32,816 nt of DNA, taken from assembly GCA_016838885.1 (NCBI GenBank), contig JAEKNW010000316.1:1-32816 (forward strand), in the 5' to 3' direction. How positions within the stretch are numbered: the first letter of the stretch is position 1; each line of letters opens with the position of its first letter. Positions 15,501 through 30,088 of the stretch are shown here, piece by piece. The notes under the pieces are model-generated. The model was not told where the DNA came from, ran no database searches, and saw only the letters and a list, made by a program, of their open reading frames with translations. Source of the DNA: Candidatus Cloacimonadota bacterium (GTDB lineage: Bacteria; Cloacimonadota; Cloacimonadia; Cloacimonadales; JAFGVF01). A program made the translations under genes and the position numbers.

Positions 15501-18500
15501 CTTTATTATGATGAGTTAGTTATTAGTAACGATGGACAAGCTCAACTAGATTATTCTCTCTCTGCAGAAACATTAGCTCTTCCTTGGATTACTGCTAACC
15601 CTATATCAGGAACAATTGATGTAGGAGCTTCTGCAACTATTAATCTAACCCTTGATACAAGAAGTATTAATTATGGCTCATACTTTGCTAATTTTGTTGT
15701 TACAAGTAATGACCCAGATAATTCAACTACATCCATACCAATGACATTAAATCATTCAAATTTCAACTTCACAGATACAGATAATGCTGGAAACGATTTT
15801 GTAGAAACAGCTGATAATGATCTTGGTATAAATATTAGTGAGAATTCACCAAATGCTCCTGTAGAATTCTTTATTTATACTAATGAGTCTGAGATTGAGT
15901 ACGCAAAATTAAGAATCAGAGCTTATGATATCGACTCAGGAGAAATTAATTATGTCTTTGTGAATGGAACTTGGGTTGGTCAACTGGTTGGATCAAACAA
16001 TAATTACAGTATTACAGAATTTATGATTAGTCCTGAATTAATTAGCTTAGGAGAAGATGCTGCTAATGAGATTGAGATTTCATTAGATGTTAATAGCACA
16101 GATTCTGGTTATTCAAGGATAATTTGGGGACAGTTTGTCTTTAATCAAGCTCCGATTTATGCTTCAATAAATTCATTGAATTTGAATAGATCAAACTACT
16201 ACCCTGGAGAAGAAGTTCAAGTTAATTCTATCATCACTACCCAGCTATATAATCAAGCTGTAAGGGCTGAATATGAGTTGTTGAATCCAGATTTAGAAGT
16301 GATCGACACTTATGAAGAGACTCTTAATTTGTCTGTAACATCTAATAATCATGCAAGTGCAAGCTTAGACTTACCTGCTGATAGTGAAATTGGTACTTAT
16401 AGTGTTAAACTTGCCATCTATGACCATGCAACCAATGTAAAACAGAGCCAAAGAAGCACTAATTTAAGTATTCTTTCAGGAGACCCTGTCCTTAGTGTGA
16501 ATAATGAAATCAACTTTGGTAGCAACTATATAGGTTATCCTAAGATGAGAAATATTCAGGTAACTAATCAAGGTTATGCTCCTCTTAGTATCTATTCGCT
16601 TACTACTTCAAATGGTTTCTTCAGTGTTGTTAATCGAGCATTTGTTCTTCAAAATGGAGAGAGTGAGACTATTACAGTTACCTTTGAAAGTTCAGAAGCT
16701 GGAACTTTCACCGAGAATTTAATTATTGAGTCTAACGACCCAGATAACCAAACTCAAAACGTTACTTTAAGTGCCACAGCTATAGAAGCTCCACAGATTG
16801 AGCTTTCAACAACTTCAATAGCTACAACTATACCACGCTTTGGTACAGATAGTGCTCAATTTACTATAACAAACACTGGTAATAGTACATTGAATGTCTC
16901 ATCTATAAGCGTAAGTGGAACTTCATGGTTAAGTGTGGAACCAACCTCATTAACTATTCCTCAGGGTTCCAGTGAAGAAGTTGAACTTAGTTTCTCTTCT
17001 TATGATTTAACAGAAGGAAACTATAATGCTATTGTTCAAGTTAATTCTGATGATCCTGATAATTCAGCATCCTTAATCTATGTAACCATGACTGTAACAG
17101 AAAGGTTAATCACTGCTAACTTTACAGCTTCTCCACTTAGTGGTCCAAAAGACCTTCAAGTTACATTCACTAACTTCTCTCAAACATCTGATGGATCCCA
17201 GATAAGTGAATATCAATGGGATTTCCAGAATGATGGGATAGTAGATAGTTATGAGATTAACCCAAGCTTTACATATGAAAATAGAGGAAGTTATTCGGTA
17301 AGACTAACTGTTGAAAATGAAAATGGTGAGAGTCATTCACTTCTTAGAAATAGTTACATAAATGTAATAAATACTATTCCTGTGTTAACCTCACCAATTC
17401 CTAACATAGTAATGGATGAAGATGCTATTAACCAAGAGATTGACTTAAGAACATATTTTAATGATGTTGATGGCGATAATCTCATCTTCACTGTATCAGG
17501 GAATCATAATATTCATGTGAGCATCACTAATGGCATAGTAACTTTAACACCAAATCAGGATTGGTTTGGAATTGAAGAGTTAACTTTCACAGCTTCCGAT
17601 AATCATCAAGGAATTGTGAGTGATGTTATTACTGTAACAGTTGTGGATGTTTCTGATTCACCTCAGTTTATTGATTTACCTCAGTCTATTACTTTGCTTC
17701 AAACAACTTCGTATATAATAGACTTTGCAAATCATGTCTATGACCCTGAACAGAGTTTATCTCTCTTGTCTCTTACTATTGCTAATAATGAACATATCAC
17801 CTATAATATTCTTGGTTTAGAAGTTACCTTCTTTGCTCCAGATGACTGGATTGGTATGGAAACATTAACTATTAATGTAAGTGATGGGACAGGTAGATTA
17901 GTTACTTCTCAGGATTTAGATGTTCGAGTAACAGATTCTTTTGTTGCTAACTTCATGGCAGATAAAACTGATATTCTATCAGGTGAATTAGTCAGTTTCA
18001 CAGATTTAACTGAAGGTAACCCTAATCATTGGGTTTGGTACCTAGATAATGATAACGTTGCTGATAGTTATTTACAAAATCCAAGTCTGAATTATAATAT
18101 TGGAGGAAACTATTCCGTCAGTTTAGTTGTATCATATATTAATGATGAAGATCTTGTAGTAGCTTCAGATAGTGTCAGATTTACTGATTATATTACTGCC
18201 GAGGGAACTTCTATCCCTGGTGGAAATTACTTAGGTGATTGGGAAGCTGTTTTTTCTCCTTATAATGTATACGGAGAAGTTTCTATTGAGACAGGACAAG
18301 TCCTCAATATCGAAGCAGGTACTGTCATCAATATGATGGAAGATACTGAGTTTGTGGTTGACGGTGGATTAATTGCTGACGGAGTCATCTTTGCAGTACC
18401 AGATATTGAAACTAGAGAAGTAAGGGAATGGCAAGGAATCAAATTTAATCCATCTTCTGGAAACTCCAGTATATCTAACTCAGAAATAAAAAATGTTAAA

Positions 18501-21254
18501 AAAGCTATTGAGATTACAGGTTCTTCTCCTAATTTATCCGGCTTGACTATTGAAGGTATTGATAGTGAATTCCCTGCTGTTAAGATAATTGGAGCTTCTC
18601 AAGCAACTATCGATAATCTTGATATTGATAAATTTAATACCGGTATTGAGATCTTAGGAAACTCTTCTTCTGATGTTCCTGTTATAACAAATATCAGAGT
18701 AAGACATACTACAAATACCTCCAGAACAGATACTGATGCTATCGCTGTAAAGATTCAAGACTCTAACTTAACTATAGATGATCTTGATATTGAAGACTTC
18801 GGTAAAGGAATTGAGATTAAATCAACTTCAGGTTCTTCTGCTCCTGTTTTAACCAATATTAGAGTAAGACATACTACTAATACTTCACGGACTGAAGACG
18901 ATTATGCTATCAAGATTGAAGGAAACACTTCTCCAAATATTAGCAGAACAGATATTGATGACTTCTCTAAAGCTATTATCTTCGATGCTCTTAACTCTTC
19001 TACTACCCCTGTCTTAACTAATATTAGAGTTCGCCACACTACTAATACATCACGAGAGTTAGCTGATACAGGTATTGAGTTTATTGGAGGAGTAAGTGCA
19101 GAAATTGACTCTTTAGAAATAGAAGATTATACTACCGCTATCTCATTTGTTAATGAAGCACGCACAGAGAGTACTACACCAACATTAACTAATATCAGAG
19201 TTCGACATACTACTAATACATCAAGACCTGATGCTGTAGCTTTGAAGAGCATGGGTAAGGTCAATTTGAATTTGATAGGTTTCGAATCTGATAATGTTAA
19301 AGACGGTATCTCTTTCTATTCTTCTGAATCAGTTACCCCAACATTGACTAATATCAGAGTAAGACATACTACAAATACATCCAGAGATTTAGGAGGTAAA
19401 GCGCTTGACTTTATTGGTGATATCTCGCCTAATCTATCGGATGTTATTGTGGAAGACTATGTAAGTGGTATTAGTTTCGATAATAGTAATAGAAGTGAAG
19501 AAACTGTCCCTGTCTTAACAAATATCAGAGTAAGACATACAACAAACACTTCCAGAACAGATGCCATAGCTCTTAAAACCTTAGGAAGTGTAAAACTTGT
19601 TTTAGATGATTTTGAATCAGATAACGTCAAAGATGGTATTTCGATTTACTCATCTGGCGATAGTGCACCGGTTTTAACAAATATCAGGGTTAGACATACT
19701 ACTAATACCTCACGAGATTTAGGTGGTACCGGTATCTTACTTAGTGGTTCAGTTGAAGCTCTCTTAGATTCTGTTCTAGTTGAAGATTGTGTTTTAGGTA
19801 TTTCACTTGAAAATATGAGTAGAACTGAGGCAACAACTCCTGTTCTTACTAATATCAGAGTTCGTCATACCACTAATACATCCAGAATTGAAACTATAGC
19901 TCTTAAGAGTATTGGATTCATTGACCTAAAACTAACTGATTTCGAATCAGAAGATGTTATGTCCGGTATCAATCTTAACTCTTCAGATGAAACAATCCCA
20001 GTTCTCACAAATATTAGAGTAAGACATACAACTAATACTAGTAGAGAAGCTGGAGTTGGTATCACTTTGAGTGGCCAAGTCAATGCCTTGCTAAGTGAAT
20101 CTTTAATTGAAGGTTTTACTACCGGTATCGAAATTAGTGGAAATAATCAAGCTAACATCGAAAGAAACGCGATTATTGATAATCTCATAGCCTTTGATTT
20201 AGCTGGTGCTGATTGTTCTCCACAAATCCATCATAATCATATAGAAAATAACTTAGAAGGTTTAGTAACTTGCTTTGCTCTAGATAATGTTAATAATATT
20301 CAAATCTTAAATAACAATATTCTGGGATTTAGAAGAGTGGTAATGGGACAGAATTCTTCCCCTTACTTTAGTCAAAATATTATCTGGGGAGCTCCTATTC
20401 AGCAAGACAACCTAACAATGGGAAATCAAGTGAATGCCACTTTCGAGTATAACAATATCTCGATGGCTACAGGTAATGCTCCCGGTATGGCAAATATGAA
20501 TGCAAATCCTCAATTTACAGATTCTCCTGCACATAATCGCCTCCTAAGTGTTCATTCCCAATGTATCGATGGCGGTAATCCAAACCTACCACTTGATCCG
20601 GATGATTCTATCGCTGATATTGGTATGAATTATGTTCATCACTTAGGTGAATTTGACTCAGAAAACAGATTCTCAACTTTAGGAAGCCCTATCAGATTTG
20701 AAAACTTGTCTGAAGGTCATGAAGATGAATCAACTACTATTCATTGGGACTTTGGAGATGGTAATACTAGTGATGAGCTAAGTCCGGTTCATACTTATGG
20801 TCAAATCGGGATGTACGACGTAATCTTAACCATGACAACCGGAAGCTATACCGATGTCGTTAATGGTCAGATATTTGTTGTAATTCAAGAAGAAGCTATC
20901 TTACCACCTCAAAATCCTACTGTAACAATGACAGGTTCTAGTATGAATTTATCATGGGATCAAGTAATTCAATCAGTTAATGGTAATCAAGTTGATAACG
21001 TAGTTTATCTAATCTACTCCTGCGAAGATCCTGAAGGTATATTCAGATACAGAGCAGATGTTACCGGATTAAATTGGACAGATGTTAATATTGCCCAAGA
21101 AGAAGATAGGCAATTCTACTTTATCCTTAGCTTCGTAGGGAATGATAGATCTTCCTTAGATGAATTTATCAGAACTCATCGTTACTTAAAGAGAAATGGA
21201 GATGTGGTTGAAGCTGCTTTATCAACTAAACCACAAATAAGAACTAAGAAATAA
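573..21254 (+). CDS. Giant secreted multidomain surface protein, 6,893 aa
   Basis: Start fixed by AGGAGG at 561-566 and a signal peptide (KK then a hydrophobic core, cleavage near residue 20). Domains, approximate residues: SYGDGWNG-type 21-110; FN3-like 118-212, 372-471, 655-746, 1490-1548; jelly-roll-like 213-370, 2077-2235; GLUG 839-1100; PKD with WDFGDG at 1213, 1582, 2029, 2269 and 6725, weaker ones near 5549 and 5820; cadherin-like 2318-2426 and 5600-5790. Nine ASH (choice-of-anchor D) and about nine BACON-like sandwiches alternate over 2518-5510; four BACON-like units (one earlier, 1631-1993) hold inserted domains: Rossmann-like, LamG-like (3327-3556) and two beta-propellers (3770-3983, 4235-4463). 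A right-handed beta-helix (5885-6640) carries nine invariant motifs. A PKD and an FN3-like domain end the chain. Only about 19 Cys, and no T9SS sorting domain or membrane anchor seen. Probably an extracellular adhesin or matrix protein; binding partner unknown. No frameshift. Confidence 0.93.
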   Translation: MKKLGLTFCFLMLVVSALFGVDYSIELVDSYGDGWNGGAVTVNVNGTPVLTNLTLASGAGPEAHTFAADGEDVITTVYTAGSWPTENEYQIKNDTGVVVAESGQGGATPGNVEYTVPEAGTPSIPVLTTPANGAINVAIDGTLEWTTGDNTDHTVLYFADNAELTGAIVVDLATSLYSPTLALNTTYYWKVVAVSASALEAETEVWSFTTEYGTAEVPYTENFDTYEEGQHPNGWIVFDNTGNSYNYCQVDYGQALSGPSSLRLHNSGTTTGDYILSSPKIENAGNRVNFSIMGGDNFPIEVIVGTMSDANNVTTFTALDTLSLSDQFESYSFALPSDRETKHISFKHDMLAFYQNIYIDDFEVEEIPENEPTSVTFISPEDQATNISVNTLLEWEIGDNTTSINLYFSSNLQEVENFETSALLVADELLNSYECQDLENYATYYWRVTAINNISGLVAHSEIRQFTTELSGDFINVIIGEEAVTNTGLPIEPYYGYTYSQTIYQADQINYEGNISSVSIHYNGFSAWGPEELNIYMGHTQLSSFESPTSWVPFANLIQVYAGTITTTNQDQWLTFNLDSLFYYNNTDNLVIAWDENTQGYHSSGDEFYNSNAASNVSIRYRHDSNNPDPANPPYGTLINKFPNIKILLDSEETVDEYPSPINLQVITVNGAIHLNWSAPGQESRSTRALQGYNVYRDSLQINESLVIDTLFSDTDLVHGETYTYYVTALYDEGESEASNEVEVEAMYLFLSGDGTQSAPYLVNNLFDLYVLSQNTDYWGQDVYIEQTADIDAEVNPYVDSAGFRPIGYEWSNIFKGHYNGNDYTISHVYINRPDEEYVGLFGYTYGAVISNVNIQDIQVYGNEKVGGLVGRTYANSLIENCSVTGVITGTQGINTMVGGLVGNNYDSTINNCSTSFLVLNGTNVVGGLVGSNYNGVITNSHSESDIDCEGVFVGGLVGYSQQESLIEDSYAIGNIQGQVNVGGLLGNNNNATINRCYSEGQVISEGNYVGGLVGRNNNISIISNSVSYSNVVGGESYIGGLAGSNNAIIHDCYAIGSVTGSGDYTGGLIGLTSESGLVDNCYALGQVTGNNSVGALIGFNNQSTISNCFWNSDTSGELLGAGGSSGVLNNVVGKTSSELKTLTTFTQSGWDFVGESANGNDDNWVYNTGHYPNLAWEDLFLPEFTVSQQTINANTEITFTNLSLGDITNYEWDFGDGSYSNEENPVHNYLSPGIYSVSLTIYEGDESLTETKLDYITVYVTSPSGLTAYVEDNENDVILNWQEEDGIWLQKCNDTNYNGIGTGSEAEFSVAVKYTTEELRAYQGMYLNYIKFFPRLAEATYTLKVWGGASGMDELYSQAIESFQAMEWNEFSLSSTVAIPTSGQLYIGYHVSTPTGLPAGADAGPVVDGGNMIRFNDSSNWSNLHDLNSSLTVNFNIKGFVSPSGSDRVVRNYQPQLELTRGNSDVKENLLAEYSQPTSSSTDYSVNTRDLTGYKVYRDDSMIAMVEAEVTNYVDYSLPNGTYEYYVTQVYGSVDSDPSNRVNVTIDIIEADFAVSDSTIYLGQSIDFINQSTGNIIDYLWDFGDGNTSVEENPNYTYLDAGVYSVSLTISNEFNTDELIKVDFITVNNRPEIDVNPLELNSTVMVDGVDNQSFVISNFGEAVLSYNISNTEPLRGNANFNVTSYNDQLLSQKPNNDNNLNGERVIPDFSKKVYSLNTDNNRFVGNILVFEETGSYTHYNTALGNLELPRTFVTNWTAFNTELTNGTEWDLVIVNSYNSRPSTTIVDNVYSYVQNSGKLIFAYWGLNSSFNSSFMSEMGIQFVSSTSTPKNIIPSISSHEIFNYPNVITGVNYTHNQWNTDGQIVNVLPSAFRIASLNGYPDSGAIVLNQNGNCIFNSFQAENYNSDDDSDGKLDMVELLENQISYLINDSYDTWYTASPNSGSILANASEIIDVTFNSANLIPGLYIDTLYVNSNDPFNPSIPVTLNMNVIPEELLVDFEFSTASTIVNEEIIFTNLSNQSNVTYYWDFGDGNSSIEENPVHAYTDAGTYTVSLTVTNAFESVTETKEECISVFYEMLLLTEDFEDNELDNLIRIETVGSFNSAPGIKNITNFGSQKAYGFGRSTQGASAFDNYVTKFIIDFDHPTYVSQISFKEMELYGNWGSSGNIFVDGELVPDTYIGRIPSNDHHADSSYRSHSFVIDQEVTELMIKIRDITSSSEIFIDDLSVFVRSATIMPNFYTDNTNIDQFQEIQFINQSVGNISSYLWDFGDGNTSVEENPYHIYNEPGVYTVSLTITNASGSVTETKEDYITVNAINHNPYLTLPDSFTFVEDTTLEVDFSAYITDVDEDDELILSGALGDYVYTEIDGFSVIFSAMADWYGTEVLYFTVDDQAGEGIARVNVGRSRAIATDSVQVIVTSVDDPMFVQTPIDDIYEPMNSPEITIALADRFGDIDSEITSYAITGNTNEELVSTSLSDSTLTLSFSEDMFGTAEIELTAYNNHSDQASMSFTVDIWPTPQMGVSPEAFTVSVLTGESFPSTLTIENDGLGALEWEVESVNYQETGLPNWVEIATTSGNVEVGGEQVIDITFSAEDLSAGLYHADILFNHNNPNQDLIEVPFTFTVLGLPEISVSTTSLNFGQVFVNSSQVLPLVISNSGSSTLNINNITETGNYFSVNYQNFTIPVGQSRTIEVTFSPEDIGNDDASLNINSNDYLHNPLVISLFAEAINPPEIEVVGQDLEFYVLGSGVDTETILIRNNGASTLEYNLDSDDNWVNFNPFMGQLEPAGQQEVTITVNPTNLVAGIYNSSFAVNSNVPASQATIVDFQLVREVYNVTDFDNENNNGDGIADNDLDLLIGYNSANAPIEFNIYSNNPNPETARLSIRAWNVDNAGGGVHAVYLNGYILGELRGLSDAWTTTLFEVEPAYLNGSLVNLVEIDVDSDFVGNSIEVDWGQLSYDNTSLNASIRYIDLDQSSYYAGSSVGVTEEIDTNLSSQEIRVETTIYSPWDTIVTGTSRVLTIIGSQSDAFTESLEIAEHYTPGLYELQVIVYDNNSNVQQALFTSNFEVKPYESEILVETNSIDFGAVLENETSQEVLTITNTGHADLVITEISSDHANFTSNISSTTIGYNESQDVIISFTPTSLGQVESDLTVISNAANTPALVLTLSGVGIENVPYIEVSHTSLDFGNVYTIVPVSQAITIRNIGPAPLEITNITSDNQYFLVDNNQAGTIITTNQEVLVNVTFEPFAVQQYSGNITISSNADNQPNFVITLTGQGSIAPQVTYTPNEYELAMSVGENVTQALEISNSGGNALTWNIKDNFGKMFELDGFNSPTVDYGFIRNRAPIQLYGGSFTVELWFRVDSNLGQRSNGSIYNGGKQCIVSKSTASQTGSFGIYTDGIDNLVSDKNLKIALNNGSNREFLVANHIELHQWYHVAVSYTDNTMFVYLDGSLIAQEEVVNFSGNYDPWILGKMSQTGSNWYRFDGALDEFRIWESARSQTQIANYRNVRLTGNEQNLGGYWNFDQEDLRDASSYQTAGLIYGNASITESSVSSIPSWIAFSNTSGQLEAGSQTALDINLDASGIIGGTYYQVIELSSNDPDESMVEIPLTVNVAGIPNLVISPATLDFGNSFIGYSDTLSVLIINTGSDVLNLSNFNLAEDVFTTEVTQLSIPANQSQRIIVSFAPEAETIYSGQLSFTTNLPGNAVRSVDLTGNGVYTPQIALSHSSFSTSVNSGQITSQELTISNVQGVELNFEIELIEVLGRNVVAGVFDNLPNSNKGMVWVDGYLYVVSYSQNKLVKYDISSESVIAQYNIHSSPFGITYDGTNLWIGSSTGNYYAYDLAGNQVNQFNSILLGNYAMTWTGENFIISPSSVNNPQIYTVDIDGNVITTINTNFNGKMNQIVWVADHTGGELWALDYNARKIRQLNPTNGEVLNQINYNEFSGTSFALAHNGRDLWIAPDSESDSKLYRIEDNIEEFNWLTVTPDSGSLLAGENQIVTLEYNAMNLMAGRYEAVLDIHSNDADTPSSVIYVILDVIGQAVLVSSHDELDFGTGYIDQTLTQEIILSNAGTSNLEISNITFNSDDFSVAETEITIEPLASQSININFTPLSSGVKTAQMTIYSNDTGNSEYILQLSGIAEGQPTIEVNPISLLANLTVDDEETQVVRLTNNGGSNLSYSLALDETNEVRESLTNKYELRERGQFADESRNLIHKDLPYKNLVASETNRFLGDQIATYPNMPLWNSGIYWLNDELYIVDFNEDNEDQATGRLVKYDIETYQIIESYPIHTQPYGITYDGSTFWIGSVNGNIYAYDPDLLNSSSNIPVDSFTSPVDESPAITYIGDSFLINQGFSDNPITTIYRVAHNGEILESYSASLGKHISQLVWVDEYFNNELWAIENINIDNVLSGKILQLKLVNGTIVVTSERVFWDNKPIYSLTNDGKDLWISDASGPLFQVDDGRWLSTDNISGTIAPSEYRDINITFDPTSIYGGDYSGSVRLTSNDPQNSLVNLPVTMRVQGYPEYEISDSQINFGEVAVGYSDTQNISLSNIGSDDLEIESITFSPQGIFTTNTNISSLEPGASSEIIVEFSPDTNIEFDASMDIQTNIGLVSVILNGQGYLPPIIGLSIENLVSSLQYGQSEDTELTISNSGDRTLSYEIMITGGSRSDNNNRSRTIEPNDWLSLTPNSGDIIAGTSQTITITLSATDVYAGNYSAVLLVNSNDPQGSQEIPVQLSVSGSPSISISETELDFGSVLIGNSGTQTFNVSNTGSSTLQVSSISVESNEFLVTPPSFTLAPEASRTVTVSFTPLSQGTKTANVIIISNDENGEEEVTLTGYGMEASAEILASTNILEFSEVNVGNYRELEYTLYNQGTGILRITNISSSHPDFVSQSAPTVNSPINIQPGNSRVMLVRYTPTGDTEETAVLTITSNANNENSLELNMSGSGVYVPQIAINRTSLDWFILDNTLYYDELVISNDGQAQLDYSLSAETLALPWITANPISGTIDVGASATINLTLDTRSINYGSYFANFVVTSNDPDNSTTSIPMTLNHSNFNFTDTDNAGNDFVETADNDLGINISENSPNAPVEFFIYTNESEIEYAKLRIRAYDIDSGEINYVFVNGTWVGQLVGSNNNYSITEFMISPELISLGEDAANEIEISLDVNSTDSGYSRIIWGQFVFNQAPIYASINSLNLNRSNYYPGEEVQVNSIITTQLYNQAVRAEYELLNPDLEVIDTYEETLNLSVTSNNHASASLDLPADSEIGTYSVKLAIYDHATNVKQSQRSTNLSILSGDPVLSVNNEINFGSNYIGYPKMRNIQVTNQGYAPLSIYSLTTSNGFFSVVNRAFVLQNGESETITVTFESSEAGTFTENLIIESNDPDNQTQNVTLSATAIEAPQIELSTTSIATTIPRFGTDSAQFTITNTGNSTLNVSSISVSGTSWLSVEPTSLTIPQGSSEEVELSFSSYDLTEGNYNAIVQVNSDDPDNSASLIYVTMTVTERLITANFTASPLSGPKDLQVTFTNFSQTSDGSQISEYQWDFQNDGIVDSYEINPSFTYENRGSYSVRLTVENENGESHSLLRNSYINVINTIPVLTSPIPNIVMDEDAINQEIDLRTYFNDVDGDNLIFTVSGNHNIHVSITNGIVTLTPNQDWFGIEELTFTASDNHQGIVSDVITVTVVDVSDSPQFIDLPQSITLLQTTSYIIDFANHVYDPEQSLSLLSLTIANNEHITYNILGLEVTFFAPDDWIGMETLTINVSDGTGRLVTSQDLDVRVTDSFVANFMADKTDILSGELVSFTDLTEGNPNHWVWYLDNDNVADSYLQNPSLNYNIGGNYSVSLVVSYINDEDLVVASDSVRFTDYITAEGTSIPGGNYLGDWEAVFSPYNVYGEVSIETGQVLNIEAGTVINMMEDTEFVVDGGLIADGVIFAVPDIETREVREWQGIKFNPSSGNSSISNSEIKNVKKAIEITGSSPNLSGLTIEGIDSEFPAVKIIGASQATIDNLDIDKFNTGIEILGNSSSDVPVITNIRVRHTTNTSRTDTDAIAVKIQDSNLTIDDLDIEDFGKGIEIKSTSGSSAPVLTNIRVRHTTNTSRTEDDYAIKIEGNTSPNISRTDIDDFSKAIIFDALNSSTTPVLTNIRVRHTTNTSRELADTGIEFIGGVSAEIDSLEIEDYTTAISFVNEARTESTTPTLTNIRVRHTTNTSRPDAVALKSMGKVNLNLIGFESDNVKDGISFYSSESVTPTLTNIRVRHTTNTSRDLGGKALDFIGDISPNLSDVIVEDYVSGISFDNSNRSEETVPVLTNIRVRHTTNTSRTDAIALKTLGSVKLVLDDFESDNVKDGISIYSSGDSAPVLTNIRVRHTTNTSRDLGGTGILLSGSVEALLDSVLVEDCVLGISLENMSRTEATTPVLTNIRVRHTTNTSRIETIALKSIGFIDLKLTDFESEDVMSGINLNSSDETIPVLTNIRVRHTTNTSREAGVGITLSGQVNALLSESLIEGFTTGIEISGNNQANIERNAIIDNLIAFDLAGADCSPQIHHNHIENNLEGLVTCFALDNVNNIQILNNNILGFRRVVMGQNSSPYFSQNIIWGAPIQQDNLTMGNQVNATFEYNNISMATGNAPGMANMNANPQFTDSPAHNRLLSVHSQCIDGGNPNLPLDPDDSIADIGMNYVHHLGEFDSENRFSTLGSPIRFENLSEGHEDESTTIHWDFGDGNTSDELSPVHTYGQIGMYDVILTMTTGSYTDVVNGQIFVVIQEEAILPPQNPTVTMTGSSMNLSWDQVIQSVNGNQVDNVVYLIYSCEDPEGIFRYRADVTGLNWTDVNIAQEEDRQFYFILSFVGNDRSSLDEFIRTHRYLKRNGDVVEAALSTKPQIRTKK
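3087..3880 (+). repeat. GLUG repeat array within the giant protein
   Basis: After a VGLFG opening unit, nine copies of a VGGLVG-like core (VGGLVG x5, VGGLLG, IGGLAG, TGGLIG, VGALIG) recur every 25-35 residues, each followed by N/S-rich turns and a C-Y/S/F segment. This is the GLUG motif seen in bacterial surface adhesins and peptidase-linked exoproteins. The units probably form a short beta-solenoid. The region just before (SGDGTQSAPYLVNN) is the usual lead-in to such arrays. Confidence 0.8.
11880..12530 (+). other. Beta-propeller domain 1 inserted in a BACON-like fold
   Basis: About 214 residues of the giant protein with propeller-blade motifs (KGMVWVDGYLYVVSY, PFGITYDGTNLWIGS, NQIVWVADHTGGELWALD, LAHNGRDLWIAPD). 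It begins after the strand QELTISN..ELNFEIEL and ends at WLTVTPDSGSLLAG, the second half of a BACON-like sandwich. A homologous insertion lies at 13275-13965. Such propellers usually mediate protein or sugar binding; no catalytic residues are evident. Confidence 0.6.
13275..13965 (+). other. Beta-propeller domain 2, paralogue of the 11880-12530 domain
   Basis: Shares the order and wording of propeller 1: LVKYDI, PYGITYDGSTFWIGS, NGNIYAYD, ISQLVWVDEYFNNELWAIE, TNDGKDLWISD. It is framed by the two halves of another BACON-like domain (VVRLTNNGGSNLSYSL before, RWLSTDNISGTIAP after). The pair indicates an internal duplication of the host sandwich, insert and ASH unit, since ASH modules follow both. 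Divergence is substantial, so the duplication is old. Confidence 0.6.
18687..20045 (+). repeat. Nine-copy beta-helix repeat with invariant TNIRVRHTTNTSR
   Basis: The 13-residue motif starts at 18687, 18852, 19017, 19188, 19347, 19518, 19677, 19848 and 20007 (residues 6039, 6094, 6149, 6206, 6259, 6316, 6369, 6426, 6479). Spacings are 55, 55, 57, 53, 57, 53, 57, 53, so from copy 3 onward it is an ABABAB array with a 110-residue period. B linkers end in a charged R(T/S)E stretch; A linkers read DAxALKxxG...FESDNVKDGIS. All nine motifs are identical in protein while their codons differ widely. The linkers have the I/L-x-N-x-G rhythm of a right-handed beta-helix. Confidence 0.92.
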
Positions 21255-22132: not shown

Positions 22133-25100
22133 ATGATAGATTATAATCATTTATTACCAGGAATAATTAGAGAGATAGTCGCAGGTGGAGAGTTAAATTA
22201 TTCTAAATTACCTTACTCTAAATTAATAGAAGCAGGGGTTCTTTTTACTGATGTGAGTGGTTTCACAAAAATGACTGAGTTAGTTAGTAAGGGAGGTCAT
22301 TATTCTATCGAGATTATCACAGATTTATTGAACAGTTATTTTGAAGAGATGAACAAATGTATAGATGAATGTGACGGAGATCTCATCAAATATGGTGGAG
22401 ATTCAATATTAGCTATATTTCCAGGTGATGAAGATTCTGCTGAAGCTAGGATGAAAATATGTCTAGTCAAAATGAAGCAAAGATTAAAAATCTTAAATAT
22501 TCAATTTCAAGATATCTATAATTTAGATATTGATTTTCATGGTAATTTTAGTTGGGGAGAGGTAAAGATTAATATTGTTGGAGATGAAATTCATCATCTT
22601 GATTATTTTATAAATGGAAAGCCATTGGAAGAGGTTTTCACTCAAGGAGATATTACCATTGATGTTGACCTCAAATCAACTGATTATAAGAAACAGAAAT
22701 CCAATTTAATTACAGATAATCAATTACTAAGCAATTTTCTCCCTAAACGGGTAAATGACTGGCTGGGAAATAATAAGTTTAGGGGAGAGCTTAAAAACTC
22801 TGCTGTAATGTTTGTTAAAATTCAAAATGCTGATGATTCTCAAACCGAAATAGGACTCCAAAATTATCATAAATTCTATCGGCAAATGCAAAATATCGTG
22901 TATTTTTATGAAGGGACGATAAATAAAATCGATTATACTGATAAAGGTTATTTAATCTTAATCACCTTTGGTGTTCCTTATCTTCATAATGATGATATTG
23001 AAAGAGCTTTTGTCTGTAGTACCAAAATATCTAAATTGGCAGTTAGTGGGATTAAAACTAAAATTGGGTTAACTTATCAAAATATCTTTAGTGGTATTTT
23101 AGGGGCTAAAAAACGCTATGAATATGGGATAATCGGTAATGGGGTAAATATTTCTGCTCGACTTATGAGCGAGTCCCCCTATAATGATTTTACCTTCTCA
23201 TCTGAGATTATTCCCTCCATAAAGGGAAGATATGAAACTCAATTTATTAAAAAAGTCCAAGTTAAAGGCATCGCTGAAGAGATTGAAATTTATCATATAA
23301 CCAAGGAGTTGTCCGACTACTGGAGTGCTTTTGTTGCAAAGTATGAAAATGATAAATTATTTGGGTATGATGATATTCTGATAACCATGGATGGTCATCT
23401 ATTGACCTGCATCTCGGGTAATCCGGGAAGTGGAAAATCTCATCTAGTTTATGAGTATCTTAAAGCTAAAATAGAGAATAAAGATTCTAATCTTATCCTG
23501 GTCATGAGTGAGTATGATAAACTGAAACCATTTACTATCTTTTACAAGCTAATTAGTAGATTTCTAGCTATTGATAGCATTGTTGATGATATAATTTTGT
23601 TAAAGAGATTTTTAAAAAAGCGATGTATTAAGCTTGATTTGGATATTATCACTGATTATTTTCAAGAAAGTTCTATTGAATTAAAGGGAAAAAACTTACC
23701 TATAGTTGAAGAAATTCTAACTGAAATATTAGTAACAGTATTAAAAGAGAATGACATCCTTGTTATTGAAAACACTCAGTGGCTTGATCAGCAGTCAAGT
23801 AAATTATTGATTAAGATGATTCCGAAATTGCAAGTCGAAAAGAAGAAAGTCCTTCTCACTACTAATGATATAAATATTTTTAATGATTATATCTACTATT
23901 CTCCTTTAAAAGTTGAGATGAAGAATTTTGATGAAGCACTGACAAAAGAGTTCTTTCTTTCCAAAAATCTTAATGTTACTCCTAAAGCCCTTAAAGAGAT
24001 ACTTACCTTATCACAGAGTAATCCTGCCTATATCAAAGAAGTTTGTTCTATTATTGAACATAATTGGTCTAGTTCTAAAGGTATTTTTGATGTAAGTGAT
24101 TTTCTGCAATTAGTTCGAGCAGGGAAACTACCAAAGTCTTTTGAAACTGTTCTCTTAAATGATTTTGAAGCTCTAGATGAAGATACTAAACAGCTTTTAA
24201 AGTATGCCTCCATAATGGGAGTATCTTTCAATGACCAGTTAATGGATATCTTTTCTGAAGAGTTTGTTAGGGAACACATTCAAACAGTTTTGAAAAAACT
24301 AACAGCTAACAAACATATTTTTAAGAAGTTAATTTTACCTGAAGTTGAATATTTCTTCAATAATTCTCTCATGAGAGATGCAATCTATAGAACAATACTT
24401 TTTAAAGAGAAACAGAAATTGCATATAACAATTGCTAACTATTATATCAAGAATTATAAGAGCAAAATCTCTATGTATTACGAAGTAATAGCTAATCACT
24501 TTATCCTAGCCAAATCTGACCTAAATATCGTGAAATGGTCTTTACTGGCAGCTCAAAAAAACTATGTTATGTCTGCCTATGGTATATGTAATTATTATTA
24601 CAGCCAAGCCCTTGATTTCTGTGAAAACGAAAAAGAACGAAATGATATTCTGTTATTGTTAGTTGAAGTTAATATCGCCCAAAATAAAATACGAGAAGTT
24701 GCCCAATATCAAAACCTGATTCAGCTTGACTTGTTATCACAGGAGCAAATAGATTTATATTACTTTTATCAGATTCGTTTATATGAAATTCAAAAAGATT
24801 TTCAAGCTTTTAAAAGTACTTATCAAAAGATCAAAGATATCATTCAGTCTCAAGAGATTTTGTTTAGAATAAAACTAATTCTCTTTGATTATTATAGAAT
24901 GAGCAACTCCTTAGAACAATTCGAAACTCTGAAGAAAGAGTTGAAGGAGAGTATCGACTCTCAATCTATCACCATTGGAATTCTCTTTTATTCAATAATT
25001 GGACAATATTACTTAGATAGAGCGGATTATAAGCTAGCTGAAGAAAACTACCAAATACTCCATAAAATTGCCCAAGAAAATGATAAAAGATTTTACTTAA

Positions 25101-25873
25101 GAATTTCAGAAACATCGCTGGGAATCATTCAAATAAGACTAGGGAATCAAGAAAAAGGTTTAGAATATTTCAAAAAAGCCTTAAATATTGCCGAAGATAT
25201 CGGTGATAAACATGGTTATGCAAAGGTTTCTACTGAAATCGCAATGATTTATTTTGCTCAAGGTTTAGATGATCAAGCCTTAGCAACCCTAGAAAATTGT
25301 CTTTCAACTGCAAAATATATTGGAGATAAACAACAAGAACAAACAGTCCTCTATAATTTTGGCTATATATATTTTGTATTACAAGAGTATGAAAGAGCTA
25401 TAACTTATTTCACTCAAGCAAAAGAGATTGCTGAGTTAATTGATGATAAAGTTGGCATAGCTTATGCTAATGATGGACTTGGAGATGCTTTTTTTCAACA
25501 AGGAAACTTAACTGAAGCAAAAAAGATTTATGAAACCAATTTAAAACGTCAACAAGAGTTGCAAGATAAAGAGGGTATCGCGCATTCTCTCGGTAACTTA
25601 GCTAATGTTATGAGAGCAGAGAAGGATTATGAGGGAGCATTTAAATACTATCAAATTCAAGAAGAGTCTCTTAATGAAATAGGAGATAAAATTGGTCAAG
25701 GTAAAGCTCTTTTCAATTGGGGAATTACTTTTGAAATCCTAGGTGATGATGAGAAGGCTGTTGAAAAACTAATTACAGCATACAAGCTTTTTAATGATGC
25801 TAAGGATATAAATTACGCCAGCTATACTCAAGAACAGATTGATAGAATTAAGGGAAAATTAGTAATAAACTAA
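22133..25873 (+). CDS. Soluble-adenylyl-cyclase-like protein: two class III cyclase domains, STAND ATPase, TPRs
   Basis: 1,246 aa, cytosolic, no signal peptide or membrane segment. ATG preceded by GGAG (22124-22127). Domain 1 (about 30-175) has the metal-binding aspartates, LFTDVSGFT (D40) and IKYGGDS (K86, D90), but lacks the VN..AR motif. Domain 2 (about 220-370) has lost the first metal site (VMFVKIQNAD) but has YGIIGNGVNISARL (331-344), which supplies the catalytic Asn and Arg. The halves would complement at one heterodimer-like site, as in ADCY10. A P-loop GNPGSGKS (429-436) and Walker B-like LVIENTQWLD (about 543-552) mark a STAND/AAA_16 NTPase. Seven ~40-residue TPRs (about 953-1230) with IGDK-type linkers end the chain. 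Likely makes cAMP in response to an unknown signal. It could be a degenerate, non-catalytic regulator. It stands 78 bp before the DRTGG operon and could be co-transcribed. Confidence 0.88.
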   Translation: MIDYNHLLPGIIREIVAGGELNYSKLPYSKLIEAGVLFTDVSGFTKMTELVSKGGHYSIEIITDLLNSYFEEMNKCIDECDGDLIKYGGDSILAIFPGDEDSAEARMKICLVKMKQRLKILNIQFQDIYNLDIDFHGNFSWGEVKINIVGDEIHHLDYFINGKPLEEVFTQGDITIDVDLKSTDYKKQKSNLITDNQLLSNFLPKRVNDWLGNNKFRGELKNSAVMFVKIQNADDSQTEIGLQNYHKFYRQMQNIVYFYEGTINKIDYTDKGYLILITFGVPYLHNDDIERAFVCSTKISKLAVSGIKTKIGLTYQNIFSGILGAKKRYEYGIIGNGVNISARLMSESPYNDFTFSSEIIPSIKGRYETQFIKKVQVKGIAEEIEIYHITKELSDYWSAFVAKYENDKLFGYDDILITMDGHLLTCISGNPGSGKSHLVYEYLKAKIENKDSNLILVMSEYDKLKPFTIFYKLISRFLAIDSIVDDIILLKRFLKKRCIKLDLDIITDYFQESSIELKGKNLPIVEEILTEILVTVLKENDILVIENTQWLDQQSSKLLIKMIPKLQVEKKKVLLTTNDINIFNDYIYYSPLKVEMKNFDEALTKEFFLSKNLNVTPKALKEILTLSQSNPAYIKEVCSIIEHNWSSSKGIFDVSDFLQLVRAGKLPKSFETVLLNDFEALDEDTKQLLKYASIMGVSFNDQLMDIFSEEFVREHIQTVLKKLTANKHIFKKLILPEVEYFFNNSLMRDAIYRTILFKEKQKLHITIANYYIKNYKSKISMYYEVIANHFILAKSDLNIVKWSLLAAQKNYVMSAYGICNYYYSQALDFCENEKERNDILLLLVEVNIAQNKIREVAQYQNLIQLDLLSQEQIDLYYFYQIRLYEIQKDFQAFKSTYQKIKDIIQSQEILFRIKLILFDYYRMSNSLEQFETLKKELKESIDSQSITIGILFYSIIGQYYLDRADYKLAEENYQILHKIAQENDKRFYLRISETSLGIIQIRLGNQEKGLEYFKKALNIAEDIGDKHGYAKVSTEIAMIYFAQGLDDQALATLENCLSTAKYIGDKQQEQTVLYNFGYIYFVLQEYERAITYFTQAKEIAELIDDKVGIAYANDGLGDAFFQQGNLTEAKKIYETNLKRQQELQDKEGIAHSLGNLANVMRAEKDYEGAFKYYQIQEESLNEIGDKIGQGKALFNWGITFEILGDDEKAVEKLITAYKLFNDAKDINYASYTQEQIDRIKGKLVIN

Positions 25874-25951: not shown

Positions 25952-26299
25952 ATGAAATTAAAAGATATCTTAGAGTTATTAGAAGGTGAGTTATTAACTC
26001 CTGATGCTGATATAGAGGTAGATATACCTTGTGCATTTGGCTCAGATTTAATATCGGACATCTTAATGTGTACCAAAGAATCTACACTTTTATTAACCGG
26101 ATTAACTAACCCGCAAGTTATTAGATTATCCGATATGATTGATTTGTTAGGAGTCGTTTTTGTCCGAGGTAAAAGACCTCCTCAAGACCTTATTGATATG
26201 GCGATTGAGAGAGAACTACCATTAATCACTACTAAAATGACCATGTACAAATCTGCAGGGCTTCTATATAACAAAGATTTAAGAAGTTGTCAGATTTAA
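25952..26299 (+). CDS. DRTGG-domain protein (first of two)
   Basis: 115 aa, a single small alpha/beta domain of the DRTGG family. Visible family features: MKLKDILELLEGELL start, a segment of hydrophobic strands (TLLLTGL, GVVFVRG), RPPQDLIDMAIERELPLITT and a C-terminal MYKSAGLLY. Ribosome-binding site AAGGGA (25941-25946). DRTGG domains are small modules of uncertain biochemistry, elsewhere fused to phosphotransacetylase or CBS domains, where a regulatory ligand-binding role is assumed. A paralogue two genes on (28099-28443) suggests the two proteins pair or act at successive steps. The stop overlaps the possible TTG start of the next gene, indicating translational coupling. Confidence 0.85.
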   Translation: MKLKDILELLEGELLTPDADIEVDIPCAFGSDLISDILMCTKESTLLLTGLTNPQVIRLSDMIDLLGVVFVRGKRPPQDLIDMAIERELPLITTKMTMYKSAGLLYNKDLRSCQI

Positions 26300-26301
26300 A
26301 T

Positions 26302-26793
26302 ATGGCGGAATATTGGAATATCAACGATGACTTCAAAGATAGATTTGAGTTGTTTCAAAAAGAGAAACCGGCTCCGGCTATTACTTTGGAGTTTGAGGTA
26401 ACTAAGCACGACTTTAATAATGCGGGGAATGGCTCAGCTGAACTAAAGAGATTACTGAAAAAGCTAGGAATTGATCCTGTAGTTTTACGCAAAGTTGCAG
26501 TTGCTTCTTATGAAGCAGAGATAAACTTAGCTGCTCATTCAGAAGGTGGAGTCATGAAAAGTAATGTGCATGGTGATTTAGTTCATATAGTATTTGAAGA
26601 TATTGGTCCTGGGATTGAAGATATTCATAAAGCCTTAGAGCCCGGTTTTTCAACAGCAGTTGAGTATGTCCGCGAAATGGGTTTTGGAGCCGGATTAGGT
26701 TTACCCAACATTAAAAAGAATTCTGATGTGATGCATCTAGATTCTGTAAGAGGAAGAAATACTATATTAGAGATTATAACATATTTTAAATAG
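26302..26793 (+). CDS. RsbW-like HATPase (GHKL) anti-sigma/serine-kinase-type protein
   Basis: 163 aa from the ATG at 26302; a TTG at 26287 would add five residues (MSDLN) and overlap the upstream gene by 13 nt. Neither start has a well-spaced Shine-Dalgarno: AAGAAG (26281-26286) touches the TTG and is 15 nt from the ATG. The GHKL ATP fold is clear: N-box YEAEINLAAHS, G1 box DIGPGIED, G2 box GFGAGLGLPNIKK and a late G-RNT strand. It is a stand-alone ATPase domain with no histidine-phosphorylation or sensor part, as in RsbW/SpoIIAB anti-sigma kinases. In this kind of operon it is likely to phosphorylate or switch a partner according to the state of the iron-sulfur protein encoded next. The partner is not evident here: no STAS antagonist or sigma factor lies nearby. 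Confidence 0.85.
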   Translation: MAEYWNINDDFKDRFELFQKEKPAPAITLEFEVTKHDFNNAGNGSAELKRLLKKLGIDPVVLRKVAVASYEAEINLAAHSEGGVMKSNVHGDLVHIVFEDIGPGIEDIHKALEPGFSTAVEYVREMGFGAGLGLPNIKKNSDVMHLDSVRGRNTILEIITYFK

Positions 26794-26806
26794 ATAGCAG
26801 GAATAT

Positions 26807-28093
26807 ATGTATCAGAAAAACGAGTATTTTCATGCTTTACAAATTAAGCAAGAAAATTGCACCGGGTGTACTGCTTGTGTTAAAGTGTGTCCTACCGAAG
26901 CTATTAGAATAAGAAATAAAACTATAATACTGGATGAAAGAAGGTGTATCGATTGCGGTAATTGTATAGAAGCATGTTCATTCAAAGCAATTATACCTTA
27001 TTCGGATAATTTTGAGATAATGAATAATTTCAAATATCGAATTGCCGTCTTTTCAACCGTATATGCCGGGCAATTTTCTGAAGAGAATAATTATGCTACA
27101 ATTAAGAAAACTATCCTAAAACTAGGTTTCGATGAAGTAGCTGAAGAGTCTAGTGTTGTAGATTTCATGACTGAGATGATTCAGAAATATATCCGCGATA
27201 ACAAAGATATTAGGCCTGTTTTATCTAGTGGCTGTCCTGCTATAGTTAGACTTATCCAAGTTCGATTTCCATCTCTATTGCCTAATCTTTTTCACATCGA
27301 AGCTCCTATGAGTATTCTTTCCTATTATTTAAGAGAACAGGCAAAAGAGAAGTATCAATACTCAGATGATGAAGTAGGTGTCTTTCTTATTGTTCCTTGT
27401 GTTTCACAAGTTACTGCAGTTCATCAGCCTGAAGGTACTTACAAGAGTTATCAAGACGGTGCCTTTTCTATTAGGCAGATATACAGTAAAGCTCAAGAAG
27501 TCGTAAAAGAAGCTTGGTATGACAATGCACCAATCGATACCTATGAAAGAGGTTTAACTTATGGTATTGCTGCTAAAGAAGCAGATAAAATTGATTCAGA
27601 CGATATCAGAGTTTTATCTGTTACGGGGATTGATAACTGCATAGATATTCTCTCCAGAATCGAAGACCACCATTTTGATCAATATCAATACGTAGTACTG
27701 AGAAGTTGTGATGTCGGGTGTGTTGGGGGTGGTTTAAATGTCGAGAATAAATTCATAGCGATGAGTAGATTGAAAAAATTAGCCCAGAAAGAAAATGATG
27801 ATAAATTGGATTATAAAGAGTTTTGGGCTCTTAACAAGAAGGGTAAATTTGATGTTCCAAAACTAAAACCTCGTTCTATTATGGAGCTTGATGATAATCT
27901 ATTTGCTGCCTTAGAGAAGATTCAGAAGATTCAAGAGATTGTTAAGCAATTACCGGGTATTAACTGCTGCGCTTGTGGTTGCCCTACTTGTTACGCTTTA
28001 GCTGAAGATATAGTGCAAGGTAAAGCAACAATAAAAGATTGTGTAATCCTATATAAACAGAATTTAGATAAAACTGAAAAGAAAGGAAAATAA
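26807..28093 (+). CDS. [FeFe]-hydrogenase-like iron-sulfur protein, probably regulatory
   Basis: 428 aa, cytosolic. N-terminal two-[4Fe-4S] ferredoxin domain (Cys 18, 21, 24, 28 and 47, 50, 53, 57). Hydrogenase large-subunit-like core (about 75-330), then a C-terminal Fe-S domain (NCCACGCPTC, Cys 387-395, plus C412). The three H-cluster loops are altered. L1 is SSGCPA (C143) instead of TSCCPxW, so the presumed proton-relay Cys is Gly. L2 is VPCVSQ (C198), lacking the usual Lys. L3 is SCDVGCVGGG (C301, C305). Four cluster ligands are therefore retained while proton-transfer residues are lost. This suggests a sensor or low-activity hydrogenase rather than a main catabolic enzyme. Ribosome-binding site GCAGGA (26797-26802). 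The gene sits in the DRTGG/HATPase/PHP operon, which I associate with fermentative anaerobes, often near HydABC-type hydrogenase genes; none are in this window. Confidence 0.88.
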   Translation: MYQKNEYFHALQIKQENCTGCTACVKVCPTEAIRIRNKTIILDERRCIDCGNCIEACSFKAIIPYSDNFEIMNNFKYRIAVFSTVYAGQFSEENNYATIKKTILKLGFDEVAEESSVVDFMTEMIQKYIRDNKDIRPVLSSGCPAIVRLIQVRFPSLLPNLFHIEAPMSILSYYLREQAKEKYQYSDDEVGVFLIVPCVSQVTAVHQPEGTYKSYQDGAFSIRQIYSKAQEVVKEAWYDNAPIDTYERGLTYGIAAKEADKIDSDDIRVLSVTGIDNCIDILSRIEDHHFDQYQYVVLRSCDVGCVGGGLNVENKFIAMSRLKKLAQKENDDKLDYKEFWALNKKGKFDVPKLKPRSIMELDDNLFAALEKIQKIQEIVKQLPGINCCACGCPTCYALAEDIVQGKATIKDCVILYKQNLDKTEKKGK

Positions 28094-28098
28094 AAATA

Positions 28099-28443
28099 AT
28101 GATAAAGTTACAAGATTACTTAAATAAGATAGACCATGTTGTTCTTAATCCGGAAGTTAATGTAGAGAATGTTGAGCTTAACACCGGATATGTTTCTGAT
28201 TTACTCTCAGACGTAATGGGTTCTGCTAAAGATAATATGGCATGGTTCACTATTATGCGACACATGAATGTGATTGCAGTAGCCTCTATGGCTGATATCC
28301 CTTGTATTGTTTTTGGCAAGAATACTCCTCCTGAACAAGCTGTTATTGATAAAGCAACTGAAGAAGGAATAGTTTTAATTAAAACATCTTTACCTGTTTT
28401 TGATGCTGCGGGAGTTTTATATCAGCTTTTGCATCAAGATTAA
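28099..28443 (+). CDS. DRTGG-domain protein (second of two)
   Basis: 114 aa, paralogous to the 25952-26299 product: same length, similar start (MIKLQDYLNKIDHVVLNP), and a shared core pattern YVSDLLSDVMG / PCIVFGKNTPPEQAVIDKA / IVLIKTSLPVFDAAGVLY. The GF/YxSDLLSDV segment parallels GSDLISDIL in the first copy. The gap to the upstream stop is 5 nt and AAAGGAAA (28082-28088) serves as ribosome-binding site. Its last stop base is the first base of the next gene's ATG (TAATG). The ligand is unknown; the position between an iron-sulfur sensor-like protein and a PHP phosphoesterase suggests part of one signalling unit. Confidence 0.85.
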   Translation: MIKLQDYLNKIDHVVLNPEVNVENVELNTGYVSDLLSDVMGSAKDNMAWFTIMRHMNVIAVASMADIPCIVFGKNTPPEQAVIDKATEEGIVLIKTSLPVFDAAGVLYQLLHQD

Positions 28444-29186
28444 TGCTAAAAAAGTTTAAAATAGACCTTCATAATCACACAGTTCTTTCTCCTTGTGGAG
28501 GCTTGGAAATGTCTCCTCTTGCTTTTATCGAACGGGCTAAGGAGCTTGGACTTGACATGATAGCAGTTACAGACCATAATAGTTGTAAAAATTGCCAAGC
28601 CTACTATGAGCTAGGAAAGAAGCATGACATTGTAGTAATACCTGGTGTCGAAATCCAAACTATGGAAGAGATTCATGTAGTTGCTCTGTTTCCGGATATT
28701 GAAACAGCTATGAAGTTTGATGAAGAAATATATGAAGCTCTTCTTCCGATTGAAAATAATCCTGATTACTTTGGGGATCAAGTTATCGTGGATAAAGATG
28801 AAAATATTATCGGAATTGAAGAAAGAGCTCTCATAAATTCTGTAATCTGGGATTTTGAGACTACTGTTTTAAAAGTCAAAGAATTTGATTCTATCTGTTT
28901 TCCTGCCCATATCGATGCTCAAACTAATTCTGTTATTTCTCAACTTGGATTTCTTCCTAAGAATTTATCTATTGATGGAGTAGGTATAACAGCCAGGTGT
29001 GATATTAACCAATTTATGGCAAAGAACTCTTATCTTTCAGGCTTAACTGTGATCAGAAATTCTGATGCCCACTATCTTAATGATATGGGGTCTGGAAGCT
29101 GTTTTGCCAGGCTAGCCCAAGCAAGTTTTCAAGAATTAAAAAAAGCATTTGCTAAAGAAGAGGGAAGAGAAATCATCCCGGCTTAA
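28443..29186 (+). CDS. PHP-domain metal-dependent phosphoesterase
   Basis: 247 aa. Metal-ligand motifs of the PHP fold are in place: DLHNHTVLSPC (H10, H12), VTDHNS (D44, H45), PGVEIQT (E70), EIHVVALF (H78), FPAHID and late SDAH. The LSPCGGLEM start is the form found in the stand-alone PHP proteins of this operon type. The ATG overlaps the upstream TAA by one base, so translation is coupled. The family hydrolyses phosphoesters or nucleotides with two or three metal ions. The specific substrate is unknown, but a small phosphorylated signal fits the context. It converges with the minus-strand pseudouridine synthase gene with a 4-bp overlap and no separate terminator. Confidence 0.88.
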   Translation: MLKKFKIDLHNHTVLSPCGGLEMSPLAFIERAKELGLDMIAVTDHNSCKNCQAYYELGKKHDIVVIPGVEIQTMEEIHVVALFPDIETAMKFDEEIYEALLPIENNPDYFGDQVIVDKDENIIGIEERALINSVIWDFETTVLKVKEFDSICFPAHIDAQTNSVISQLGFLPKNLSIDGVGITARCDINQFMAKNSYLSGLTVIRNSDAHYLNDMGSGSCFARLAQASFQELKKAFAKEEGREIIPA

Positions 29187-30088
29187 TCTTTTTGATATTT
29201 CTCAAATCTTCTTTTTTCTCTTTCTAAATGAGCTGTAAATTTATGAGGGAGGGAAAGATTAAAGCTTAATTTCTCTTGTGTGATGGGATGATTAAAGGCA
29301 AGTTCTGTTGCCGATAAGAAAAGGCCCTTTCCTGAGAGTACTAAGTCTTTATTCCCATATAACTTATCCCCTAAAATGTGGTGTCCTATACTGGCAAGAT
29401 GTATTCTTAGTTGATGAGTTCTGCCTGTGAATAATCTTAGTTCCAACAAAGAAATCTCACCAACTTTTAAAGATGGACATGTCATTATCAATTTATACTT
29501 AGTTAAAGCCTCTACTTTTCCTATGGGGCTATCAATTACCCCTTCATTAGCAGGACAACCTATTACAATTGCGCTATACTTTTTAACAATCTCTCGTGCT
29601 TGAAACTGTCTTGAGAGTTCAATCAAGGCACCTGATGTCTTTGCAATTAAGAGTAATCCGGAAGTTTGATTATCTAATCTATGAACAGGCCTTAACTTCT
29701 TTAATCCATCAGTGCCGGTATTTAAAGAAATATTAGAAAGAAGCATATTCTCAATAGTCTTGAATTTATTCCCACTCACATCAACACCTGCAGGTTTATT
29801 GATTACAGCTAGATAATCATCTTCATAAATAATTTCTAAGTTTCTCTGATAAGCTTTATAAGTTATATCCTCTTCTTCAATCAAAGTAATGACATCACCA
29901 TTCTTAACATAATCTGCAGTATATCCTCGCTGGTCATTTATCAATATATCTCCACGCTTAATAGCCTTGATTAAGGCCTTACGACTGTGAATATAATCAA
30001 ATCTATGAAAGCCGATATCACTCAACCTCATCTGATTATCTAAATTATCTAGTTTTATAGTTTCTATTATCTTCATTGATTCGTCCAT
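29183..30088 (-). CDS. RluA-family 23S rRNA/tRNA pseudouridine synthase
   Basis: 301 aa. N-terminal S4 RNA-binding domain (about 19-70; SRKALIKAIKRGDILIND). Catalytic domain with INKPAGV (96-102), the signature HRLDNQTSG (136-144; D139 is the catalytic aspartate) and TGRTHQLRIHLASIGHHILGD. It isomerises uridine to pseudouridine in structured RNA; the exact target (RluC/RluD-type 23S sites or tRNA) cannot be told from sequence alone. The start at 30088 lacks an evident Shine-Dalgarno; an in-frame ATG four codons on (M5) is an alternative and would cost no S4 residue. TATAAT on the minus strand (30107-30112) could be its -10, implying a very short leader. The gene is unrelated in function to its neighbours. 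Confidence 0.92.
   Translation of the reverse strand: MDESMKIIETIKLDNLDNQMRLSDIGFHRFDYIHSRKALIKAIKRGDILINDQRGYTADYVKNGDVITLIEEEDITYKAYQRNLEIIYEDDYLAVINKPAGVDVSGNKFKTIENMLLSNISLNTGTDGLKKLRPVHRLDNQTSGLLLIAKTSGALIELSRQFQAREIVKKYSAIVIGCPANEGVIDSPIGKVEALTKYKLIMTCPSLKVGEISLLELRLFTGRTHQLRIHLASIGHHILGDKLYGNKDLVLSGKGLFLSATELAFNHPITQEKLSFNLSLPHKFTAHLEREKRRFEKYQKD

Follow-up and report, generated by a model that had tools for sequence, protein, structure and literature searches.

How can nine copies of one peptide stay identical within a single protein when the DNA encoding them has drifted apart? The question is raised by a 32,816-nucleotide stretch (hereafter the window), contig C316 of a Candidatus Cloacimonadota genome of 3.34 Mb in 350 contigs (GenBank contig JAEKNW010000316.1, assembly GCA_016838885.1). 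Within an open reading frame (ORF) of its forward strand (573–21254), which encodes a giant secreted protein, the 13-residue motif TNIRVRHTTNTSR occurs as nine exact in-frame copies. Homogenized repeats are usually ascribed to the copying of DNA. The nine copies in the window, however, are kept alike by selection on the protein and not by recent DNA copying. They are located as follows.

18687–18725, + strand: motif copy 1, TNIRVRHTTNTSR
18852–18890, + strand: motif copy 2, TNIRVRHTTNTSR
19017–19055, + strand: motif copy 3, TNIRVRHTTNTSR
19188–19226, + strand: motif copy 4, TNIRVRHTTNTSR
19347–19385, + strand: motif copy 5, TNIRVRHTTNTSR
19518–19556, + strand: motif copy 6, TNIRVRHTTNTSR
19677–19715, + strand: motif copy 7, TNIRVRHTTNTSR
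19848–19886, + strand: motif copy 8, TNIRVRHTTNTSR
20007–20045, + strand: motif copy 9, TNIRVRHTTNTSR, with serine encoded by AGT; this unit is orthologous to the last unit of the relatives

The copies are spaced by 55, 55, 57, 53, 57, 53, 57 and 53 residues, and they did not arise by chance, because the protein's own composition gives a specified 13-mer a probability of about 10^-16 at each position. All nine are present as the sequence-only reading of this locus had described them, as is the use of AGA, AGG, CGA, CGC, CGT and CGG for arginine and of TCC, TCA and one AGT for serine. Its statement that the DNA differs at nearly every synonymous position was slightly too strong, as N2 (AAT in nine of nine copies), R4 (AGA in eight), H7 (CAT in eight) and N10 (AAT in eight) are fixed or nearly so. 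What stands is that the motif codons are near saturation and close to random. Their mean pairwise identity is 0.541, against 0.496 ± 0.040 expected when codons are drawn independently from the protein's own usage (z = 1.1), and linked synonymous sites common to the copies, the signature of gene conversion, are not found in the window. Allowing two standard deviations, any memory that the copies retain of a shared DNA ancestor amounts to less than about 0.25, which corresponds to 2kt of at least 1.4. Computed by the NG86 method, the proportion of synonymous differences (pS) and the synonymous distance (dS) are 0.61 and 1.28 in the motif and 0.63 and 1.36 in the linkers. The proportion of nonsynonymous differences (pN) is 0.51 in the linkers and 0.028 in the motif, where it stems entirely from the AGT/TCN serine path and amino-acid differences are zero. 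Because synonymous sites are as saturated in the motif as in the linkers and the two differ so sharply in amino-acid change, the constraint lies at the protein level, as had been proposed; linkers varying only synonymously, as the motif does, were not what this comparison found. The motif is also basic in acidic surroundings, again as claimed: its 117 residues hold 27 of the 45 lysines and arginines of the array, and the linkers contain 18 such residues against 63 aspartates and glutamates.

A recent duplication or an assembly artefact would be conceivable in so far as metagenome assemblies often collapse or chimerize repeats, but its probability is negligible: codons and flanks differ from copy to copy, dozens of independent genomes contain such an array and the codon divergence refutes it. 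Recent duplication of the window copies is likewise rejected by codon saturation, and a tandem DNA repeat was discarded since Tandem Repeats Finder, scanned over the array region, found no DNA repeat. Also rejected were an overlapping antisense gene (the minus strand holds only a 60-residue ORF just before the array and a 72-residue ORF at its end), an RNA element (no Rfam match) and an origin from a virus or mobile element (IMG/VR yielded no confirmed relative).

Judging from the relatives, simple purifying selection on one fixed sequence is not the whole story. Throughout the order the array recurs with another motif in each species, uniform or nearly so within each protein, which the sequence-only reading had missed, so that sameness within the array, rather than any one sequence, is what is conserved. 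The 22 related loci that a scan of genome contigs confirmed lie without exception in Candidatus Cloacimonadota, and 44 of 125 genomes of the window's own phylum gave matches; no paper on this array family was found in the library searched. The relatives share units of two predicted coils, described below, and a block of 13–15 residues, each with its own version (TNIRVRNSGSATR seven times, TNIRVRNSTDTSR six times, TNIRIRNSGSASR seven times, VNIRVRNSTQTSR seven times, SNIRVRNTSNSIR five times, and others). In total, 36 arrays with 204 units yield 33 consensus versions, and 12 arrays are fully uniform. At the variable positions 1, 3, 5 and 8–12 the difference is 0.05–0.16 within an array and 0.44–0.78 between arrays. 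The within-array difference is small from position −1 to 12, and the within/between ratio jumps to 0.95 at the residue directly after R13. Units were pre-filtered for R4, R6 or K6, and R13 in this count and in the orthologous-locus comparison (for R4 and R13 in the comparison of nearest linker and motif); owing to this filter, the invariance of R4, R6 and R13 was taken from unfiltered alignments, where these residues and N2 are invariant in the unit columns of 12–13 aligned arrays. Units decayed beyond recognition would escape the count, and some arrays have gaps of 114 residues. The idea of one motif for the whole genome was rejected, as a second array of the same genome uses MDVIRIYYSPESWK and the two arrays of one relative (G052) differ from each other.

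The invariant residues, and the acidic positions that R4 and R6 face in the predicted structure, are in line with plain structural constraint, under which the motif would be the sole sequence that folds well on its coil (coil A) and its identity would have no special meaning. Positions 1, 3, 5 and 8–12, however, are free between species and not within arrays, and because block positions vary between species, many sequences fold on coil A; mixtures are moreover tolerated in the two closest relatives, G001 and G002. This explanation is already weakened, and we consider it improbable. The array is real and well conserved, and what is constrained is that the copies of a species-specific block be alike, not that they have one particular sequence.

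The block has also changed in concert on orthologous units. A gene of one cyclase/AAA/TPR family adjoins the array gene in the window (22133–25873) and in ten relatives, which makes the array locus orthologous across them; at this locus the motif differs by 0.033 within arrays and by 0.317 between them. For 154 of 169 units the closest linker was found in another genome, and among 125 clear cases of this kind the motif is nearer to its own array in 93 and further from it in seven. In a genus trio (three species, seven orthologous units each), linker identity is 0.61 between orthologs and 0.25 between paralogs, whereas motif identity is reversed, at 0.85 and 0.97. Paralogs more alike than orthologs, as concerted evolution predicts, are thus seen in the motif, and the linkers show the opposite. 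Position 1 is V in seven of seven units, I in six of seven and T in seven of seven, according to species, and the third species also has Y at position 2 in each of its seven units. Since the orthologous linkers predate speciation, the change of the block was concerted. Although positions 1–2 changed in all or nearly all units, unit-specific codons survive in the motif: two species have GTC-CGT in common in unit 7 and AGA in unit 5. By permutation, p is 0.026 with 13 codons and 0.0075 with 17. Of 81 uniform serine columns, 15 mix AGY and TCN codons, that of window copy 9 among them. The surviving unit codons and mixed serine families point to parallel replacement or very short tracts, not to wholesale conversion.

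AlphaFold2 was run on the window array together with 12 relatives.

18309–20375, + strand: region modelled by AlphaFold2 as a right-handed beta-helix, with two coils per unit of about 55 residues

The window array is predicted to be a beta-helix with a predicted local distance difference test score (pLDDT) of 84.3 and a predicted template-modelling score (pTM) of 0.83, and the coiled parallel strands of a right-handed parallel beta-helix are present in this confident model. Laying the predicted strands onto the units gives two coils per unit. Coil A is predicted to comprise a strand, V-L-T-N-I-R-V-R, and then a loop, H-T-T-N-T-S-R and onwards, where model confidence falls, to below 50 in several copies; coil B is predicted to have a strand such as T-I-D-D-L-D-I-E and then a three-residue turn. 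The motif would therefore be the outer strand and the protruding, low-confidence loop of every second coil. A second array, from the relative with VNIRVRNSTQTSR, is modelled with the same strand-plus-flexible-loop topology (pLDDT 84.3, pTM 0.85), its loops again of low confidence. With the motif at one recurring strand and loop position in every other coil, the model agrees with the stacked array on a beta-helix that had been envisaged; buried or scattered motifs do not appear in this model, in which burial and side-chain alignment as such are unmeasured.

The anion- or glycan-binding ladder of arginine and histidine that had been proposed alongside finds no such agreement. In the predicted strand register, R6 lies opposite coil B position 8, which is acidic in eight of eight window units, and R4 opposite position 6, acidic in six of eight; across arrays, the two positions carry aspartate or glutamate in 96 and 90 of 157 units. 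Because R6 and R4 face acidic coil B positions, the arginines more likely form an internal arginine–acid salt-bridge ladder on the helix face. An N-glycosylation sequon as the reason for the loop was rejected, since the versions NSGSATR, HTSESIR and NSPESSR lack N-x-S/T. Foldseek returned only generic beta-helices (tailspikes and alginate lyases), with low TM-scores of about 0.3 or less for most, and the resemblance of the array to polysaccharide lyases and tailspikes is at the level of fold only. A sequence search of the PDB found no solved relative of the array, Pfam Beta_helix and NosD gave no match on the window array above the curated cut-off and NCBIfam NosD reached 18.6 bits against a cut-off of 300.

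The explanation that we favour, at even odds, is selection to keep a repeated surface loop the same, with help from DNA homogenization in some species. In this giant Cloacimonadota protein, which is secreted, each unit of about 55 residues would make two coils of a beta-helix. Coil A would carry the motif, the strand LTNIRVR directing its arginine side chains outward toward the acids of coil B and the protruding loop HTTNTSR and onwards following it; with only a short turn in coil B, successive coil A loops would stand out as a row of identical loops along the predicted helix. Such a ridge may offer a single multivalent surface, uniform throughout, to a repetitive ligand or a partner protein, or may serve loop-on-loop stacking. 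A differing copy would be disfavoured, so that selection would act on sameness itself: the block would be held fixed within an array and, when changed, would change in all copies. Protein-level selection alone would hold the copies in the window, because their DNA has drifted to random codons, and in GC-richer relatives partial DNA homogenization of the block would add to it. We consider it unlikely that the amino-acid replacements were made in parallel without any DNA copying, the loops having to match their neighbours or a shared partner, and that the block is a transferable recognition peptide also acquired by an unrelated secreted protein of the genome.

Several observations weigh against selection for sameness. 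DNA processes do act on the motif in GC-richer arrays, most of which show a motif codon identity above usage expectation (z of about 5–9) with linkers at expectation; this excess begins at codon −2, extends to codon 12 and does not include R13. Uniformity within arrays also covers positions 3 and 5 (I/V) of the core; they face inward, where a ligand could not see them, and their uniformity fits DNA homogenization better. In G001 and G002, where codons are similarly random, the motif is less uniform (identity 0.92 and 0.77), and sameness within an array is thus not always strict. The codon memory between orthologs of the trio is, moreover, statistically modest. The codon excess in GC-rich relatives may also reflect only accuracy-related codon bias; R13 has no excess, but species have codons in common as well. 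In six AT-rich arrays (G+C content at third codon positions below 0.35), including the window, the excess is absent or weak, a contrast that differences in repair or conversion may cause. We see two contributions, protein selection and DNA homogenization, whose balance varies by genome.

These data bear directly on a further alternative, which we hold to be possible but doubtful: that short-tract gene conversion (about 45 bp) is the main homogenizer and purifying selection keeps the current version, the last event in the window being old. The codon excess of GC-richer motifs, its stop at the conserved R13, like a tract end, and the uniform I/V choices in the core would all follow, and there is a young sister array in this genome with almost identical DNA. 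On the other hand, the lack of codon memory in the window places any conversion there at 2kt of at least 1.4, and the trio motif dS of 0.55 between paralogs is not below the 0.50 between orthologs. Unit signatures survive within 9–36 bp of changed codons, and the mixing of serine codon families noted above also speaks against it.

The sister array, a beta-helix array with the uniform motif DDDDDHDPTTPTMDVIRIYYSPESWKS, is spread over two loci (L113 on contig C185 and L114 on contig C211), its gene probably being split between the contigs. Its units are nearly identical in DNA, and this young array serves as a contrast to that of the window. Its protein passes PF13229 (27.4 against a cut-off of 25.9) and ends in a type IX sorting domain (PF18962, 35.5 bits).

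The only other match to the core motif pattern in the genome is a secreted protein of 263 residues with an FGE-sulfatase fold (C118:270-1061; L002/L032), which contains the 15 residues VPVLTNIRVRHTTNT in place of the usual segment before PVG..PNELG. The codons for this peptide differ from those of the array (identity 0.31), and this single case suggests that the peptide has a meaning outside the beta-helix. Together with the sharp end of the block after an arginine, it would suit a peptide recognized as such, independently of the beta-helix (a docking tag, a secretion or processing signal or a released peptide). We regard this as very improbable, as the motif matches the register of the beta-helix precisely and is predicted with confidence to form a strand, and the case is alone: the other FGE domains inspected, in this and related genomes, lack the array peptide, and the FGE-sulfatase gene was for that reason rejected as a general second carrier.

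The closest analogue of the array is polyubiquitin, over whose repeats there is the same dispute, conversion against purifying selection (PMC10457151 and papers cited there). Both combine identical protein repeats with drifted synonymous codons and species-specific replacements in all repeats. Polyubiquitin, however, is uniform over the whole 76-residue repeat, which is released, whereas the array is uniform in only 13–15 of about 55 residues, its linkers keep positional orthology and its protein is a predicted beta-helix. According to Persi, Wolf and Koonin (2016, PMC5120217), the repeats of a protein drift apart more quickly than orthologs do, and homogenization usually indicates recent duplication, high homogenization at constant copy number being confined to a few proteins. 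The array resembles the 'propagation of beneficial mutations' proteins of that study in having paralogous repeats closer than orthologous ones at unchanged copy number; it departs from them in that its linkers follow the rule (0.61 against 0.25) and the motif of the same units reverses it (0.85 against 0.97). Within a single gene, the regime thus switches back and forth at intervals of a few dozen residues. Whole genes of prokaryotes have been described as only rarely undergoing long-lasting concerted evolution (PMC6053082). The 36 natural arrays stand at different stages, the window with essentially no codon memory, and allow conversion to be separated from selection for sameness. The predicted fold and the Foldseek matches ally the array with right-handed beta-helix proteins (PbH1/NosD-like proteins, phage tailspikes and PL6 alginate lyases), from which the low TM-scores, the lack of a PDB sequence or Pfam Beta_helix match and the two-coil unit with its uniform loop block set it apart. 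The arrays also point to an undescribed family of giant surface proteins that about one third of the Cloacimonadota genomes sampled contain and that bears a modular loop array specific to each species.

The host protein of the array and the adjoining gene have the following layout.

573–21254, + strand: gene of the giant secreted protein, 6,893 residues, 20.7 kb (ORF reading and Pfam)
20346–21251, + strand: C-terminal part with a PKD domain; no type IX sorting domain detected
22133–25873, + strand: downstream gene with two class III nucleotide cyclase domains, an AAA ATPase and TPRs

The 6,893-residue protein has a signal peptide, identified by reading, and contains GLUG, FN3, PKD, many ASH/HYDIN-type Ig and LamG domains (Pfam), the beta-helix and PKD being sited near its C-terminus; no type IX C-terminal sorting domain was detected in that C-terminus. 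The product of the downstream gene is a large regulatory protein, with a possible signalling link to the surface protein. Beyond it, at 25952–30088, reading of the window suggests, in a row, two DRTGG-like small proteins, a histidine-kinase-like ATPase, an iron-only-hydrogenase-like ferredoxin protein, a PHP-domain protein and an RluA-type pseudouridine synthase.

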